Source of the DNA: Candidatus Altimarinota bacterium
GTDB taxonomy: Bacteria; Patescibacteriota; Gracilibacteria; GCA-2401425; JAJOLG01
DNA: 10,697 nucleotides
NCBI GenBank assembly: GCA_021129445.1
Contig: JAJOLG010000004.1
Coordinates: 3,250-13,946 of the forward strand
Direction of reading: 5' to 3'
Shown: positions 3,201 to 10,697 of the stretch, one piece after another
How the letters are laid out: each line of letters begins with the position of its first letter
Position numbering within the stretch: position 1 is the stretch's first letter
Notes under the pieces: generated by a model
Seen by the model: only the letters and a program-made list of their open reading frames with translations
Told to the model about the DNA's origin: nothing
Databases searched by the model: none
Translations under genes and position numbers: made by a program

Positions 3201-5639
3201 ATGAAAACAAAAACAAAAACATTAAAGGCTTTAATTTGATTGATGGTTGCATTTGTATTTTCAACAAATGTATTTGCCGGATTTTATATTTCAGTAGATA
3301 ATTCTTATGCTTGAAAATCAACAGAAATTATTACTTCAAATGTCTGAAAAAATGTAAAAGCAAAAATTTCAATTGAAAAACCTGATGGGCAAAAAGTTTT
3401 TATAAATGCAAAATCTTGAAATGATTGAAAAATTTATTCAGAAATTTTGTGATATCATACAAAAAAAAAATGAAAATATAATGTTGAAATTAATTTGGAC
3501 AATTGAGATTCTGCGGAAGAAAATTTTATAGTTTACCCATGAAAATTTTCTATTTCAAAATCAAAATTTTTTGCATCTGAAAAATCCATTTCTGCCAAAG
3601 TTGACAAAGCTGATATTTTTGTCAAAGCTGTCGATAGGTATTGAAATCCTATTAAATGACAGAAAATTACAATAATTTCTTCGAGAACAGAAGATAAATT
3701 TTTAAATTGAAATGAATGTAGAACTGACACTGATTGACAATGTATTTTTTCTGTAAAATCTTCAAAAGAGTGAAATTCAACTTTTACAGCAATAAATTTA
3801 TCAGAAAATAAAGTTTTTAATCAAAGGGTAAAAATTATTTTTTACACACCAGAAGAGAAAAATGCAGTTGGGTGAAATCCATATTTGGCAAGTTTGCTTG
3901 ATATAAATGATTGATGATTGCTTCTTAATGAAAATCAATTTTGAGTTATTGATTGATTTAAAATTGAAACTTCTGATCAAATTGTGTTAAATTCTGATGA
4001 TAATTTTATGAAAATTTCTGCAATTGATGTAGATTGAAATATTGTAAAAGATTATCAATGAGAGATTCAAATTATGATTCTAAATGATGAAAATGCAGTT
4101 TTGCCATGAGAGTGAAAATATAAATTTAGTAAAGAGGATCAATGAACTCATGAGTTTTCGCTTTCAACGGTTTTTACAAGATCGTGAAATACTAAAATTG
4201 AAGTTTACGAATTAAATAATTGAGAAATAAATTTTGATGTTAAATGAGTAAAAAGTTTGATAGTTGAAGAGAAACAAGAGCAATCTTTAAATTTAAATGA
4301 AAAAGAATTAAAAATTATTTCTCCATCAAATTGAATAAAATTGTGAAATAATTTAGTTCAAGTTTCGTGAAAATGAACACCTTTTACGGATTTAAAAATT
4401 TATGTCAATGAAAAAAAGGAGTGAGATTTAATTCCGGTTGATAAAGATTGATTTTTTTCTGTAAAAATAAATTGATTAAGAGAGTGAGAAAATAAAATTC
4501 ATGTGACAGAAAATCAGTGAAATAAAAGAAGTTCAAACGATGTAAGTGTATTTATCGACACAACTGAGCCGGTTGTGACAGATTTAGAAATTTTTCCAAA
4601 AGAGATTGAAACCGAAGAAAATTTTAATTTAAAAATTTATTCTGAAAAATGACTTTCTTCTGTAAAAACTTTGGTTAATTGAAATATTGAAGTTTTAAAA
4701 CCGGTAATTTGAGAAATGTGAGCTTATGAGGCGAATATTTTATGACCTTCTGAGTCTTGAATTTATCCAATTGATGTGATTTTAGTGGATTCTATGTGAA
4801 ATAAATGAACTTATAAAAATCAATGAGAATTAAAAGTTAAAGAAAAAATAAAATTACCGGCTGATAAAATTGATATGATAGATTCAACAATTGTTTGAAA
4901 TACATTAAAATTAAAATGGCAGGTGCCAAATTCTCAAAATGAGATTAAAAATTACGAAATTTATTTGTGAGAATCTGAAAAATCTCTGAAATTATTTTGA
5001 ACTTCAAAAGTAAATGATGTCAATATTGAGAATTTAAAATGGGAAACACAATATTTCATTTGAATAAAATCAGTAAATGAGTTTTGAATGAAATCGGAGA
5101 TGTCAGACTTGAAAATTGTTAACATTTGAAAAGATCCAAAAAAACCACAAGAGCATGGTTCGGCATTGACAGAGTTTTTTAACAAAAAATCATTAACTTG
5201 ATTTGCATGAAATTCCAGAGTGACTTTAAAATGGACAAATTTATCATCAGATTCTGTAAAATACAAGATTGAATATTGAATTGATAAAGATTTTTTGGAA
5301 GAAACAATTTTCACAAAAGATAATGTGCAAACATATCATATTCAGGATTTAATCAATTGACTCGATTATTATTTCAGAGTTTATTGAGTTGATGAAGATT
5401 GAAATCCGGTTTCTAAATGAACAGAGATTTTAAAATTAACACCGCAATGAGTTGCACAAGTTCAATATTGATGATTTGTTGATAAAAATTCTTATAAAAT
5501 TGATGATATTGATCAAGTTGTAAAATCGAAAAATTGAAAAAATACAAAAACTTGACCAGAGTTATATTTTCTTTTGGCAATTGCACTTTTACTTTGAGAT
5601 TTTGCTCACAGAAAATTATTTGCAAGAAGAAAAATTTAA
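3201..5639 (+). CDS. Surface protein with Ig-like and fibronectin III domains, C-terminal anchor, 812 aa
   Basis: The frame is continuous for 812 codons with TGA as glycine (about 64 TGA against four GGN by hand count). A signal peptide MKTKTKTLKALIGLMVAFVF is cleaved probably after A26 (NVFA|GF). Residues about 135-210 resemble an invasin-type Ig domain (VKAVDRYGNPIKGQ). About 370-455 is a bacterial Ig repeat (ISPSNGIKLG ... VSGKGTPFTDLKIYV) ending in IDTTEP, followed by another Ig-like segment to about 550. Two fibronectin III-like modules occupy about 552-640 and 655-755. A hydrophobic helix at about 787-803 (YFLLAIALLLGDFA) is followed by HRKLFARRKI, so the protein is probably anchored with its bulk outside, as expected of an adhesin or envelope protein. 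No Shine-Dalgarno site. The C-ending codons GCC, GAC and GTC cluster at 3591-3632, where the 9-base repeat lies. Domain boundaries are approximate; ligand unknown. Confidence 0.9.
3591..3632 (+). repeat. RYTGMCARA repeat run inside the surface-protein gene
   Basis: TCTGCCAAA (3591-3599) and GTTGACAAA (3600-3608) are adjacent 9-mers, followed by a degenerate copy containing GTCAAAGCTGTC. They are read in codon phase 0 (Ala/Asp-Lys). The codons GCC, GAC and GTC used here are uncommon in the rest of the gene. Confidence 0.5.
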
Positions 5640-5648
5640 AAAGTTGAA

Positions 5649-5675
5649 ATTGACAAAACTGACAGAACTGCCAAA
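5649..5675 (+). repeat. Three tandem RYTGMCARA 9-mers after the surface-protein gene
   Basis: ATTGACAAA, ACTGACAGA and ACTGCCAAA follow one another without a gap, beginning ten bases after the stop. The last copy is also the left arm of the terminator that follows. Confidence 0.7.
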
Positions 5676-5692
5676 AATTTTGGCAGTTTTTT
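5666..5692 (+). terminator. Intrinsic terminator of the surface-protein gene, built from the 9-mer
   Basis: AACTGCCAAAA (5666-5676) pairs perfectly with TTTTGGCAGTT (5678-5688), and a T run extends to 5692. The arms contain a direct (5667-5675) and an inverted (5679-5687) copy of the 9-base repeat. Confidence 0.85.
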
Positions 5693-5745
5693 AATTTGTG
5701 TTTGATTGTTTTTTAATTATTTTATTTAAAATAATTTTAAAAAAA

Positions 5746-6723
5746 ATGACAATAAAAAAATTTTTATCAGATAATAAAAAAAAATTTTCTCAACAGGATT
5801 TAGAATTTTTTTTACAAAAAGTTTTAAATTGTGATAAAAAATTTTTATTTTTAAATGAAAATTTTTCAATTCCAAAAGAAAAAATTTTGGAGCTAGAAAA
5901 ATTTTTAGAAGAAAAAAAACAATGATTTTCAGTTGCATCAATTATTTGAGAGAAGAATTTTTATTGAAGGAAATTTTTTATTGATAAAAATGTACTTGTG
6001 CCAAGGGAAGAAACAGAAGATATGATTGCTTTTTTGCAAGGAAAAATTTGATGAGAATTTTACTTACCTGAAAAGAAAAATTTTTTAGATATTTGAACTT
6101 GATCTGGTGTTATTCCAATAACTTTGATTTTAAATATGTTGGAAAAAGAAACTGAATGATTTTTCGATTGAAATTTTGAAGTTGTTGAAGATATTTTATG
6201 AGATATTTTTATTGATGAAGATGAGAAAAATGAGTTTAATAAAGGTGTAAGAGCTGATATTGTTACTGAGTTTTATTCTAAAAATATTTTTTATGCATCG
6301 GATATTTCTGAAAAAGCTTTAAAAGTTGCAAAAAAAAATGCAAAAAATTTTTGAGTAAAAATAAAATTTTTTCAATTAGACTTATTAAAAAATTTGCCAA
6401 AAAAATTAAAAAATGAAGGAATTTTTTTGATAACTGCTAATTTACCATATGTTGAAGAAAAAATCAAAACTGACAAAACTGCCAAAGTTGACAACTGAAT
6501 TTCAATGGAGCCAGACTTGGCACTTTATTCATGAGAAGATGGTTTACAGCATTATTTACAGCTTTTTGAAGAATTAAAAGATGTTAAATTTAAATATTTA
6601 ATAATGGAAATGGCGCCGTGGCAAACTGACAAAATTGCCAAATTATATTCTTATTTTTGAAAAACTCAAGTTTATTTGGATCTTGGTGGAAAAAAAAGGG
6701 GGGTTTTTTTAAAAAGTCAATAA
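5746..6723 (+). CDS. prmC: Release factor glutamine methyltransferase PrmC/HemK, 325 aa
   Basis: PrmC methylates the glutamine of the GGQ motif in peptide-chain release factors, using S-adenosylmethionine. After a Lys-rich N-terminal helical domain (about 1-75) comes ASIIGEKNFYGRKFFIDKNV and then LVPREETE, matching the family block YxxGxxxFYG...VLxPRxETE. The SAM-binding motif DIGTGSG lies at 115-121, with its first two glycines encoded by TGA. The substrate motif is NLPY at 232-235 (family consensus NPPY), followed by EPDLALYSGEDG. Length is in the usual range or slightly long; part of the excess is TDKTAKVDN at 242-250, which coincides exactly with three 9-base repeats. The ATG at 5746 matches the family start; an in-frame GTG at 5698 would only add a hydrophobic AT-derived tail. 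No Shine-Dalgarno site. In a UGA-recoded lineage RF1 is expected to be the substrate, because RF2 would read UGA as stop. Confidence 0.92.
6469..6495 (+). repeat. Three tandem 9-mers inside prmC
   Basis: ACTGACAAA, ACTGCCAAA and GTTGACAAC are contiguous and in codon phase 0, encoding TDK, TAK and VDN. They sit in the variable loop after the NLPY motif. Both GCC alanine codons of prmC fall in copies of this motif (here and at 6625-6642). Confidence 0.7.
6625..6642 (+). repeat. Two tandem 9-mers inside prmC
   Basis: ACTGACAAA (6625-6633) and ATTGCCAAA (6634-6642) encode TDK and IAK in codon phase 0, near the C-terminus of PrmC. Confidence 0.5.
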
Positions 6724-6828
6724 GATTCAGTATCTCATGTTTCTAATTTTGACATTTGATATCATAAAATCAAATCTTCAAAAGTTGAAATATCAAAATT
6801 GTTTAAAAAAAATTTAGTCAAATTTTAA

Positions 6829-6860
6829 AAAATAAAAGAATTTGCTTTTGTTTATTTTTT
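6829..6860 (+). terminator. Weak possible terminator after prmC
   Basis: AAAATAAAAG (6829-6838) can pair with CTTTTGTTTATTTT (6845-6858) with a small bulge, and T's follow. It lies 106 bases after the prmC stop and overlaps the deaD -35 box, so it may be fortuitous. Confidence 0.25.
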
Positions 6861-6870
6861 TTACTATATT
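6842..6870 (+). promoter_or_regulatory. Putative sigma-70 promoter of the DEAD-box helicase
   Basis: TTGCTT (6842-6847) and TATATT (6865-6870) are separated by 17 bases, the optimal spacing. Transcription would start near 6877 and leave a leader of about 155 bases before the ATG at 7033. Confidence 0.5.
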
Positions 6871-6969
6871 ATTTTAGTTATTTTTTACTGGATCCATTTT
6901 GCAAAAGTCGGGCTGCAAAAAGTGATTTTGCAAAAAATGATATTTTATTTCTGATAAAGTATTTTTACG

Positions 6970-6993
6970 AATTTATTTTTTGTAAAATAAATT
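6970..6993 (+). repeat. Perfect 10-bp hairpin in the helicase leader
   Basis: AATTTATTTT (6970-6979) and AAAATAAATT (6984-6993) are exact reverse complements around the loop TTGT. No T run follows, so it is not a standard terminator. Being A/T only, it may be chance. Confidence 0.35.
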
Positions 6994-7032
6994 TATTTGA
7001 AATGTAGTTTTTAAAAAATAATAATTAAAATT

Positions 7033-8850
7033 ATGAGTGTAGAAAAATTTAGAAAATTGTGACTTTCAGAAGAAATTTTGAAAGCTTTGGAGGAAAAATG
7101 ATTTGAAAATCCATCGGAAATTCAGGAAAAAACAATTCCTCTTTTATTAAATTCAGATAAAGATGTTTTAGGTCAAGCACACACTTGATCGTGAAAAACA
7201 GCTTGTTTTGCATTGCCATTAATTCAGAAAATTGAAGCGAATTCAAAAAATATTGAAGCCTTGATTTTGGCTCCAACCAGAGAAATTTCAATTCAAATTA
7301 CAAAAGAAATCAACTCTTTTAAATGAGCGAAAAAAATTAAGATTGTAAATCTTTATTGAGGTCAATCGATTACAAATGAAATGAGAGATTTAAAAAGATG
7401 ACCAAGTATTGTGATTTGAACTCCTTGAAGAACAATGGATCATTTGAGAAGAGGGACTTTGAAAATTTGAAATATTAAATATTTTGTTTTGGATGAAGCT
7501 GATGAAATGTTGAATATGTGATTTAAAGAAGATATTGAAACTATTTTGGAGTCTTGTCAACAAGATAAAAAAATGATTTTCTTTTCTGCGACTATGCCAA
7601 AAGCGATTTTGGATATTGCGAAAAAATTTATGAAAAATCTTGAAATTGTGAAAGTTGCTTGAAAGCAAGTGACAAATGATAAAATTCAGCAAATTTATTA
7701 TCAAGTTCAGAGAAAAGATAAATTTCAAGCTTTGTGTAGAATTGCTGATATTCATCAGGATTTTCATTGAATTGTATTTTGTAGAACGAAAAATGATGTT
7801 GATGAGGTGGTTGTAAATTTGCAGGCGAAATGATATTTTGCAGATTGACTTCATTGAGATGTAAAACAGTCTTTGAGAGAAAAAATTCTTGCAAAAATGA
7901 AGGATAAAAAAATAAATATTTTGGTTGCGACTGATGTTGCAGCGAGATGAATTGATATTAAAGATTTGACACATGTAGTAAATTACTGAATTCCAGATGA
8001 TTGAGAGGCTTATACTCACAGAATTTGAAGAACATGAAGAGCATGAAAAACTTGAATTGCAATTACTTTTGTAACTCCTGCGGAAAAAAGAAAATTGATG
8101 AATATTCAAAGGACGATTAAAACAAATTTGGAATTTTGAAAAATGCCAGAGGTAAAAGAAATTTTAAATTCAAAAAAAGAAAAAATTTTAGAAGAGTTTA
8201 AAAATCACTCATGAATTGAAAATAAGTTATTTGTTGATTTAGCATGAAAAATTTTAGAAAAATCAGAAGATTCAAAATTAGTTTTAGCTGCAATTTTGGA
8301 AAAATTTTATTGAAAAGATTTTTCTTCTGATAGATATTCTGCGACAAATAATACATGATGAGCATTTTGATGAGATAGAGATTTTTGAAGAGACTGATGA
8401 AGAGAAAGATGAGAAAGATGAAGATGACCTAAAAAACTTCAAGATTGAATGACAAGATTATTTTATGCAAAATGAAAAGATGATTGATTAACACCAAAAG
8501 AAGTTGTGGATTTTGTGCAAAAAAATATAAAAATTGAATGAAATAAAATTGATGATATTTGAGTTTTTTGAGAATTTACATTTTTAAATCTACCAACAGA
8601 AAAAGCTGAAGAGCTGATAGATAAAGCATGATTTGAAGATTGAAGAAATATTTTGGTAAAAGCTAAAAAAAGAGAGCCGAGAGAATGATGATTCTGAGGA
8701 GATAGATGATGACAAAGATCTTTTAGGTGAAGGTGATGAGACAGATGATGAAATAGAGGTTTTTGATGAAACAGACGAGGTGAGAAAAAATGATGAGGAA
8801 AATGATTTTGATGATTTAAAAAGATGAATAAAAGAAAAAGTAGAGATTAA
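7033..8850 (+). CDS. deaD: DEAD-box RNA helicase, DeaD/CsdA/DbpA type, with RGG patches, 605 aa
   Basis: This is an ATP-dependent RNA helicase, a family used in ribosome assembly and in remodelling mRNA in the cold. In order it shows the Q motif FENPSEIQEKTIP (about 24-36), motif I AHTGSGKT (49-56), Ia PTREI, TPGR, DEAD (154-157), SAT (185-187), GIVFCRTK, ATDVAARGIDI and HRIGRTGRAGKTG (329-341). Most of the glycines in these motifs are TGA. A DbpA-like RNA-binding domain follows at about 473-550 (TRLFYAKGKDDGLTP). It is flanked by two Arg/Gly/Asp-rich patches, about 437-466 and 552-600, the second being a typical RGG tail. The ATG at 7033 gives a normal N-terminus; no Shine-Dalgarno site is present. 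It appears monocistronic, with its own promoter, long leader and terminator. Family is certain; DeaD rather than DbpA or RhlE is a best guess. Confidence 0.93.
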
Positions 8851-8861
8851 AATTTTTTAAA

Positions 8862-8904
8862 ACTGCCAAAAAAATGTCAAAACTGCCAAAAAATTTTTGG
8901 CAGT
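8862..8904 (+). repeat. 9-mer copies after deaD: two direct, one inverted
   Basis: ACTGCCAAA occurs at 8862-8870 and 8882-8890, with ATGTCAAA between them, and TTTGGCAGT is inverted at 8896-8904. Either direct copy could pair with the inverted one. Confidence 0.65.
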
Positions 8905-8908
8905 TTTT
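8881..8908 (+). terminator. Intrinsic terminator of deaD, built from the 9-mer
   Basis: AACTGCCAAAAA (8881-8892) pairs with TTTTTGGCAGTT (8894-8905), and the T run continues to 8908. The stem core matches the terminator at 5666-5692. An extra upstream AACTGCC at 8861 could form an alternative stem. Confidence 0.85.
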
Positions 8909-8966
8909 GTTTTATTCTTAATTTTTTTAGTTTAAATTACTTTTTTTGAGTTTTTTAAAAAAATAC

Positions 8967-8994
8967 TTGATTTTTTTTAATAAATAAATATTTT
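8967..8994 (+). promoter_or_regulatory. Putative promoter of the tRNA-Gln/Gly/Pro cluster
   Basis: TTGATT (8967-8972) and TATTTT (8989-8994) are 16 bases apart, the same arrangement as in front of tRNA-Ala. The -10 box ends 21 bases before tRNA-Gln. Confidence 0.4.
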
Positions 8995-9015
8995 TTTGTG
9001 GCTTAAAATGTTTAT

Positions 9016-9090
9016 TGGGAATTCGCCAAGCGGTAAGGCACCAGTTTTTGGTACTGGCATTCGGGGGTTCGAATCCCTCATTCCCAGCCA
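9016..9090 (+). tRNA. tRNA-Gln(UUG)
   Basis: A complete cloverleaf with acceptor TGGGAAT and ATTCCCA, discriminator G and encoded CCA. The anticodon arm CCAGT and ACTGG encloses the loop TTTTGGT, which gives anticodon UUG. The T arm contains GGGTTCGAATCCC. First of three clustered tRNA genes. Confidence 0.97.
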
Positions 9091-9104
9091 TTATTTTAAA
9101 ATTT

Positions 9105-9179
9105 GCGGGTGTCGTATAGTGGCTATTACCTCGGCCTTCCAAGCCGATGACAGGGGTTCGATTCTCCTCACCCGCTCCA
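9105..9179 (+). tRNA. tRNA-Gly(UCC)
   Basis: Acceptor GCGGGTG pairs with CACCCGC, with discriminator T and encoded CCA. The anticodon arm TCGGC and GCCGA encloses CTTCCAA, which gives anticodon UCC. It reads ordinary GGA/GGG codons, which are the minority glycine codons here. It is not the UCA-anticodon tRNA-Gly that must read UGA, which lies outside this window. Confidence 0.97.
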
Positions 9180-9201
9180 AATTTTAGATTGCAAAAAATA
9201 T

Positions 9202-9278
9202 CGGGGTGTAGCTCAGTTGGCTAGAGTGCGTGCTTTGGGAGCATGAGGCCGCAGGTTCAAGTCCTGTCTCCCCGACCA
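9202..9278 (+). tRNA. tRNA-Pro(UGG)
   Basis: Acceptor CGGGGTG pairs with the 3' strand ending CCCCG (one mismatch or wobble region near the arm end), with discriminator A and encoded CCA. The anticodon stem CGTGC and GCATG encloses TTTGGGA, which gives UGG. The T arm has GGTTCAAGTCC. Third gene of the cluster. Confidence 0.96.
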
Positions 9279-9289
9279 TTATGAATTTT

Positions 9290-9319
9290 GACAAAAAAGT
9301 TTTTTTGTCTATTTTTTTT
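9290..9319 (+). terminator. Terminator of the tRNA cluster
   Basis: GACAAAAAA (9290-9298) pairs with TTTTTTTGTC (9300-9309), followed by TATTTTTTTT. It starts 11 bases after tRNA-Pro. Confidence 0.7.
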
Positions 9320-9343
9320 GTGTAAAAAATAATGTTATAAAGT

Positions 9344-9595
9344 ATGCAATTTATAGACCTGAAAACAGATTATGGCATTTAAAAAAATTTGTAATCAAAT
9401 AATGTTTTAATTGCATTTTAAATGCAATTTTAGAATTTGAGTGAATTAAAATGAAAAGAAAAAGAAAGAATTGATTTAATTTACAATGCATATGCAAATA
9501 ATATTCCAATATGAATGATTCAAGAAATATTTTCGATTAAAACAGAGGCAGAAATTATTGATATTGTGAAGAAGAAAAATGAAGAAATGGAATAA
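9344..9595 (+). pseudogene. Relic of an Rpn-family PD-(D/E)XK nuclease/transposase
   Basis: Two ends of one gene appear to survive. From the ATG at 9344 the sequence reads MQFIDLKTDYG and, after a shift of one frame near 9375, AFKKICNQIMF to a TAA at 9408. The known N-terminus of Rpn (recombination-promoting nuclease, putative transposase) proteins is close to FIDLKTDxAFKKIFG. After a TAG, an open frame from a TTG at 9437 gives 52 residues, including KGKEKERIDLIYNAYANNIP and IGMIQEIFSIKTEAEIID, ending at TAA 9593-9595. This is like the Lys/Glu-rich, helix-turn-helix-like C-terminal tail of the same family. The catalytic middle, roughly 200 residues in family members, is missing. Alternatively, the second part is an independent 52-aa protein and the first a coincidence. 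The relic sits just downstream of a tRNA cluster, a common site for mobile DNA. Confidence 0.5.
9409..9429. repeat. Perfect 10-bp inverted repeat between the two relic halves
   Basis: AATTGCATTT (9409-9418) and AAATGCAATT (9420-9429) flank a single T. It begins within the stop of the N-terminal fragment and lies just before the C-terminal fragment, at the inferred deletion junction. It may be a hairpin terminator (TTTTAG follows), a deletion scar or a later insertion. Confidence 0.45.
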
Positions 9596-9610
9596 TAATT
9601 TTTTATTTTT

Positions 9611-10697
9611 ATGAAAAATACAATAATATTTTTATCTATTGTTGTATTTTTTTGATTAAATCAAAATATTTTTGCATATTCGCAAGAAGTTATTTTTTCT
9701 GAAATTCAGCGGATGTGAACTACTAATTCGTCATTTGATGAATGGATTGAGTTAAAAAATTTATCAGGAAATGATATTGATTTAAATTGACGGGTGGTTG
9801 TTTCAGAGGATTGAACTCCAAATATTTCCTTGCAAAGAGTGATAAAATCTAATTGATATTTCCTCTTAGAAAGAACAGATGATAATTCTGCTTATCAGGT
9901 AAAATGAGATTTGTTTTATTCTTGATCTTTGGAGAATTGATGAGAAGTTTTATTATTAAAAAATAAAAATTGAGAGATTGTTGATATGGTTGATTGATGG
10001 AGTGCTTGAAAGTCTTCCGGTAGAGTTTCAATGTTGAGAGATGAAAATTTAAATTGGGTTGATTGAATTATGGATTGAGATCCAAAGTCAAGTTTTTCTG
10101 AAAGTGTTAATGGTAATCAAGATTGATGAGGTATGATTGAAAATTGAAATGATGAAATAAATTGAAACTGACAAAACTGACAGAGTTGACAAAGTGATCA
10201 AGACTCCGATGGAAATGTTTGAAATGATATGCAAGATCAGTCGGACACTTGAAATAGTGGGTGAAGTCAAGGTGATCAAATTTTAGATATTTCAAGTTTT
10301 GATTTTGACTTTCAATCCCCTTCTTATATTTTAAATAAAGAAGATAAAAATCAATCTGAATTTTTTTGTGATAAATCAAAAAGTGAGTGTAAAATTAATT
10401 TTAATTTTGAAAAAACTTTTGAAAATTCACCTGATTGATATTCAAAATCAAAATTTTATTGTAAAATAAAATTTTGAGATTTAAGCACAGATCAAGAAAA
10501 TAAATGTAATCCAAACACTGTCATTTTTCCAATTTGAGAAACAAAAATTGAGTTTGAAGTTTTTTTAAAAGAATGAAATGTTTTGCAATTTAAAAAGGAA
10601 ATTACAATAAAAAATATTGAAAGTCAAAGTAGTCAAAACTGACAAAATTGACAAAACTGACAAAATAACTCAAGTGCCCCTGTGTCTAAAAGAAAAG
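9611..10697 (+). CDS. Secreted lamin-tail-domain protein, 3' truncated by the window
   Basis: The frame is open for 362 codons (TGA as glycine) and leaves the window. A signal peptide MKNTIIFLSIVVFFGLNQ is cleaved probably after A22 (IFA|YS). Residues about 27-150 form a lamin-tail domain (LTD): VIFSEIQRMG, FDEWIELKNLSGNDIDLNG, then SLENGGEVLLLKNKNGEIVD and a closing SGRVSMLRD strand. LTDs are beta-sandwich modules often found on exported bacterial proteins, including surface proteins and nucleases. A Gly/Asn/Gln/Asp/Ser-rich linker (about 165-230) contains the 9-base repeat read as GQN units. A Cys-containing segment follows (FFCDKSKSECKINFNF), then a second GQN tract near 345. The C-terminal function is not visible. 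No Shine-Dalgarno site; the ATG is 15 bases after the relic's stop codon. Confidence 0.87.
10167..10193 (+). repeat. Three tandem 9-mers in the LTD gene
   Basis: ACTGACAAA, ACTGACAGA and GTTGACAAA are contiguous. They are read in a different codon phase from the copies in prmC and the surface-protein gene: here TGA-CAA-AAC, giving Gly-Gln-Asn or Gly-Gln-Ser. Confidence 0.7.
10638..10664 (+). repeat. Second run of three tandem 9-mers in the LTD gene
   Basis: ACTGACAAA, ATTGACAAA and ACTGACAAA are contiguous and again read as Gly-Gln-Asn triplets. Two degenerate AGTCAAA copies precede them. Confidence 0.7.

Follow-up and report, generated by a model that had tools for sequence, protein, structure and literature searches.

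The window, by which we mean the whole stretch of 10,697 nucleotides that was analysed, runs from base 3250 to base 13946 of scaffold C15, which is 13,946 bases long and belongs to a MAG of 672,893 bases, 77 contigs and 95% completeness. Its genes are interrupted unless TGA codes for an amino acid, and they fit genetic code 25, the code of Gracilibacteria and Absconditabacteria in which TGA is Gly; all four protein genes lie on the + strand (Table 1), and the window additionally encodes RNase P RNA and four tRNAs. In composition C15 matches the other contigs of the bin, with TGA making up 7% of codons and a GC content of 26%. The contig stops 32 bases past the last repeat copy. Genome-wide counts used nearly the whole genome, with 11 contigs below 3 kb (about 24 kb) reading as N; at least five contigs of the MAG look like standard-code contaminants, and five contigs using the standard code were excluded from background counts.

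Table 1. Genes, repeat copies and predicted terminators in the window.
Feature	Position	Strand	Remarks
Surface protein, Big_1 + fn3 domains	3201..5639	+	code 25; conserved across class
Copy A (doubtful)	3592..3608	+	surface-protein gene; no additional residues in protein alignment
Copy B	5647..5675	+	units ATTGACAAA ACTGACAGA ACTGCCAAA right 3' of surface-protein stop codon; last = terminator 5' arm
Intrinsic-terminator-like hairpin	5664..5690	+	AGAACTGCCAAAAATTTTGGCAGTTTT, then T; arms = direct + inverted unit copies; -14.0 kcal/mol, z -4.35
prmC, release-factor glutamine methyltransferase	5749..6723	+	code 25
Copy C	6467..6495	+	prmC; ACT GAC AAA ACT GCC AAA GTT GAC AAC = T-D-K-T-A-K-V-D-N
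Copy D	6623..6642	+	prmC; AAACTGACAAAATTGCCAAA = Q-T-D-K-I-A-K
DEAD-box RNA helicase with DbpA domain	7033..8850	+	
Copy E	8862..8890	+	two ACTGCCAAA units, 20 bases apart, 3' of helicase stop codon
Intrinsic-terminator-like hairpin	8879..8907	+	AAAACTGCCAAAAAATTTTTGGCAGTTTT, then T; -15.6 kcal/mol, z -3.3; stem core as at 5664-5690
LTD (lamin tail domain) protein	9611..10696	+	gene truncated by contig end
Copy F	10165..10193	+	linker 3' of LTD domain; AAC TGA CAA AAC TGA CAG AGT TGA CAA (N-G-Q-N-G-Q-S-G-Q)
Copy G	10636..10665	+	LTD gene; AAC TGA CAA AAT TGA CAA AAC TGA CAA, (N-G-Q)x3

The nine-base motif RYTGMCARA matches the window 21 times, as against 2.67 +/- 1.65 in dinucleotide shuffles, none of which reached 21, and 2.3 expected at the rate of the remaining genome. 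The initial annotation had listed seven tandem runs; five of these are real, and the loci with several copies number six, all within 5649-10664. Tandem runs of two units lie at 6469-6486 and 6625-6642, and runs of three at 5649-5675, 10167-10193 and 10638-10664. The first of the three-unit runs continues straight into an inverted copy (5679-5687), giving a terminator hairpin, and the locus as a whole spans 5649-5687. The sixth locus, 8862-8904, had also been taken for a tandem run and is in fact two copies spaced 20 bases apart followed by an inverted copy that forms the 3' arm of a hairpin. The run drawn at 6469-6495 loses its third unit (6487-6495, GTTGACAAC), which does not fit the motif, and in the one drawn at 3591-3608 (TCTGCCAAA-GTTGACAAA) only the second unit fits. 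Copy A, which adds no residues to the protein, may be a chance match. Single matches at 2509, 5165 and 5573 are at background level. The repeat is unevenly distributed along the contig, the first 8.8 kb of which holds no multi-copy locus, and it is confined to it: adjacent pairs of the motif occur eight times on C15 and nowhere else in the genome, and only 2 of 131 loci outside C15 have more than one copy. There is no enrichment in the usable genome beyond this contig, where 133 matches were observed and 137.3 are expected under a third-order Markov model; the test proposed in the initial annotation thus came out against a genome-wide signal.

The actual repeat unit is a 20-mer, AAACTGACAAAACTGCCAAA, that is, two of the 9-bp units. 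It is present at six sites in 5.0 kb, two each in prmC, in the LTD-domain gene and in Rho-independent terminators, in a single orientation throughout, in two coding phases and in non-coding DNA, and 18-20 of the 20 bases are alike between copies across these settings (at 5656-5675 in copy B there is one mismatch to the family consensus). With up to two mismatches allowed, the window has seven matches and the remaining usable genome none. The family also emerges from scans to which the motif was not supplied. Among 18-mers with at most two mismatches in at least three separate gene or intergenic contexts, it tops the multi-gene short repeat families in the 622 kb scanned (six loci, four contexts); the sole other entry is a three-locus 18-mer on contig C7, which may lie at chance level. 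A plain 18-mer scan at the same tolerance gave two families of six loci, this one and a repeat lying within about 0.9 kb of contig C18, and none of five simulated genomes reached six loci. Exact 16-mer repeats spaced 100-2000 bp number 42 genome-wide (many of them one C18 stretch) against 1-5 in simulations. Between the arrays, the exact 16-mer TGACAAAACTGACAGA is common to copies B and F and another, CTGCCAAAGTTGACAA, to copies A and C; one 16-mer in common proves little by itself, because C15 also holds exact 16-mer repeats unrelated to RYTGMCARA.

The likeness between copies lies in the DNA. Under code 25 the repeat has, as had been noted from the sequence, two readings, T-D-K/T-A-K in prmC and G-Q-N in the LTD gene, and two clusters (5649-5687 and 8862-8904) are intergenic. 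The prmC copies stand in phase 0 (TDKTAK, TDKIAK); in the LTD gene the phase is a different one (NGQ). What is conserved is the DNA, which yields two peptides, rather than one amino-acid motif kept while its codons vary. The copies also use codons that are rare in this genome, where GCC makes up 5% of the Ala codons, GAC 11% of the Asp codons and AAC 10% of the Asn codons, and such C-ending codons occur in coding copies of both phases. Both GCC codons of prmC (6481, 6637) fall within the copies, as the initial annotation had said; GAC is present in prmC outside them as well. DNA-level copying is therefore favoured over convergent peptides, given the phases, the non-coding copies, the rare codons and the exact 16-mers specific to particular arrays. 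Protein-level convergence alone is disfavoured by the first three of these. The earlier proposal that the sequence is maintained as DNA or RNA and not as protein holds in its DNA-level part (phase independence, presence outside genes, rare codons), but "maintained" goes too far, as the copies might just be of recent origin.

The two prmC copies, which lie 156 bases apart, have a single difference over 20 bases. When 25 PrmC proteins (that of the window and 24 orthologs) are aligned, the loop from NLPY to EP has 19 residues here compared with 12-16 in the orthologs and 12 in the nearest relative compared, and copy C (TDKTAKVDN) fills the excess of 3-7 residues. Copy C is thus probably an insertion. 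Copy D (QTDKIAKL) aligns gap-free with QTEEIKKI of the nearest relative's PrmC; being colinear with it, copy D is not an insertion. The ungapped alignment suggests that copy D may be the older sequence of the two, and its closeness to copy C, both in bases and in distance, makes it a possible donor. Around copies C and D there are no target-site duplications and no likeness of the flanks past about 20 bp. At least one copy stands where orthologous proteins have fewer residues. Among the candidate roles first put forward, that of a 9-bp repeat whose insertion leaves reading frames intact fits best.

Outside the genes the repeat forms hairpins. Those at 5664-5690 and 8879-8907 have the features of predicted intrinsic terminators, namely a G+C-containing stem, a T run and a place 3' of a stop codon, and they have the arm AACTGCCAAA in common. 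They are the only pair of distinct terminators on the same contig in the genome that shares an arm of at least 8 bp; the scan counts bidirectional hairpins twice, and only the distinct C15 pair was used. Inverted pairs of the unit, a habit known from terminators made of DNA uptake sequences, occur in no hairpins of the genome but these two. The genome has many terminators whose left arm is A-rich. Several copies contain TTGACA, a potential promoter -35 box, and a promoter role was rejected, promoter-like sites being at about the level of shuffles.

The comparison covered 288 genomes of the class, with the genus represented by a single genome and the order by two; with no close relative among them, an empty site cannot be shown at the DNA level. 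The 288 class genomes gave only background-level matches to the tandem element, and the nearest relative's prmC lacks it. A collection of bacterial genomes gave scattered and, among the matches listed, mostly single matches, and a scan of viral contigs likewise scattered and mostly single ones. The context scan applied to 400 kb of another code-25 genome returned nothing above three contexts. Local families are in principle not peculiar to this genome: the nearest relative carries six near-identical terminator-like hairpins, all on the same strand in a 14-kb part of a single contig, with none of that family elsewhere in its 1.3 Mb.

We consider it fairly probable that these sequences form a family of short dispersed repeats that is young and restricted to this stretch, with a 9-bp unit and a commonest copied piece of about 20 bp. 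Over some 5 kb a short segment would have been copied to neighbouring places, and the probable route is a short-patch process between close sites, for example template switching or ectopic repair; literature searches on template-switch insertions in bacteria gave nothing on point. The source may have been copy D or one of the terminators. The arrays would then have been lengthened or shortened by slippage of 9 bp, and copies would have been retained where they were harmless, in a PrmC loop, in the low-complexity linkers of the LTD protein and in intergenic DNA, where a unit together with an inverted copy would make up the stems of the two terminators. Coding copies keep the frame because their length is divisible by three, and with TGA read as glycine the unit has no stop codon in any sense-strand frame. 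The copies themselves would presumably be without function. Several points count against copying. Neither copy D nor copy A is an insertion, copies C and D show no target-site duplications and no longer flank likeness, the common orientation of all six loci is one that an RNA-level function would also give, and the unrelated exact 16-mer repeats of C15 weaken the weight of any one 16-mer in common.

The strongest competitor, which we nevertheless think unlikely, is coincidence: N-G-Q linkers of the LTD protein grown by slippage, a T-D-K helix of PrmC and two terminators that happen to be built alike would have been joined under one degenerate motif. It is helped by the position of copy D in a conserved protein segment, by copy A, which came without an insertion, by the low complexity of the LTD linkers and by the abundance of terminators with A-rich left arms. 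But the scan that knew nothing of the motif recovers the family, with nothing comparable elsewhere; the agreement of 18-20 bases in 20 spans different phases and non-coding DNA; the coding copies carry rare C-ending codons; and no other distinct terminators on a common contig share so long an arm.

Somewhat less likely still is a cis-acting RNA or DNA element (a binding, processing or attenuation signal) limited to this gene neighbourhood and kept by selection. It would suit such an element that the six loci share an orientation, that the genes along which they lie all run the same way, that copies occur both inside and outside coding sequence and that two of them form parts of terminators. 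The element is, however, missing from the nearest relative's prmC, and no tandem was seen in the other class genomes sampled; the positions within genes are unrelated, one copy fills an extra-long loop, promoter-like sites do not exceed shuffles and no regulator is known.

That the contig was mis-binned from another code-25 organism having the repeat genome-wide is very improbable. A MAG of so many contigs, some of them contaminant-like, invites the suspicion, but it was rejected on TGA use and GC that match the bin, and neither the uneven density of the repeat nor the 0 of 288 class genomes with a tandem beyond background agrees with it.

DNA uptake sequences (DUS) are spread over whole genomes, with copy numbers ranging from hundreds to thousands. 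The neisserial and Pasteurellacean ones (about 10 bp, inside genes, inverted pairs acting as terminators; PMC2397512) resemble the present repeat in length (about 9-11 bp), in their place within genes and in the terminator habit, but a DUS/USS-like signal, one of the roles first proposed, is rejected for this assembly as extremely improbable, provided that the contig does not come from another genome rich in the motif, there being no over-representation outside the one contig, tandem pairs only on it, and a genetic code and GC by which that contig fits its bin. With no enrichment elsewhere in the genome, the repeat looks like recent local copying rather than an uptake signal.

The repeat family has partial parallels. 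Rickettsia palindromic elements, 100-150 bp long and genome-wide, are inserted in frame into genes and have non-coding copies too. The present repeat shares with them and with MITE-like inserts the frame-keeping insertion into genes and the non-coding copies; it is, however, only about 20 bp long, local to one contig and palindromic at the terminators only, rather than a long palindromic or terminal-inverted-repeat element in genome-wide copies. The hypervariable PTD gene of a Gracilibacterium (BD1-5) consists in part of 9-mer repeats with over-used GAC codons (PMC6851277), and the two cases are alike in the code-25 Gracilibacteria, the in-frame 9-bp tandem units, the predicted extracellular protein, the over-use of GAC and a repeat region that disrupts short-read assemblies. 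The PTD repeat, however, is in one gene with one reading (PTD) and was taken as protein selection, whereas the repeat described here involves several neighbouring genes, two phases and terminators. Heptanucleotide tandem repeats are dispersed in the genomes of Calothrix, Nostoc and Xanthomonas (PMC4692102). They too have a short unit in few to many copies within and between genes, and the present repeat likewise has at least two tandem copies at several places, though neighbouring ones; they differ in being spread genome-wide (186 loci in Xcc), mostly intergenic, and with a 7-bp unit that is G-rich in the case of Xanthomonas and Nostoc, compared with 9 bp and confinement to about 5 kb here.

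The analysis removes a tempting false lead, namely that this candidate-phylum bacterium has an uptake signal. It leaves a clean case in which local copying has apparently brought short DNA into linkers, terminators and a core gene. We speculate, as a rather doubtful extension, that bacteria of this order may have a copying process that seeds families of short DNA over a few kb, with neighbouring terminators, loops and linkers sharing sequence. If the local pattern is general, new protein loops, linkers and terminators could arise from it in a simple manner, and it could serve to gauge how much local copying takes place in uncultured genomes.

Local families of short repeats are in principle not unique to the window: the nearest relative compared, a member of the same order (G001), carries on its contig C4 six near-identical terminator-like hairpins of sequence CCCACTCTTKCGAKCGGG, spread over 14 kb among restriction-modification-like genes and all in the same orientation. 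No further copies of this hairpin were found in the rest of that 1.3-Mb genome. Besides the window's own family, the only strong short repeat family in the window's genome lies on contig C18 (locus L026, about 12081-12960), where GATTGAGATTGA-like units are densely repeated over about 0.9 kb; under code 25 these would encode Asp-Gly repeats, if that frame is coding.

Genomic features located in the window and in the relative G001
Feature	Location	Strand
tRNA-Gly(TCC)	window 9105-9179	
Terminator-like hairpins, G001	L305 (G001:C4:20001-40000) 6024, 7063, 9202, 10092, 18536; G001:C4:39990	+

TGA makes up about 6-7% of codons in the window's genome, and ARAGORN detected no tRNA with the anticodon UCA, matching the TGA codon, in the 60 loci scanned (L009-L068), which cover the genome save for the remaining small contigs. 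Five contigs, C21 (L031), C60, C62, C64 and C66, look like contamination within the bin, since they stay open under the standard code, are almost devoid of TGA codons and use GGN heavily. In G001, the sole other genome of the order in the comparison, neither the surface gene nor prmC (L247, compared with window 5749-6723) contains an in-frame TGA. This contrast between the two genomes implies either that the genetic code changed inside the order or that the placement is wrong.
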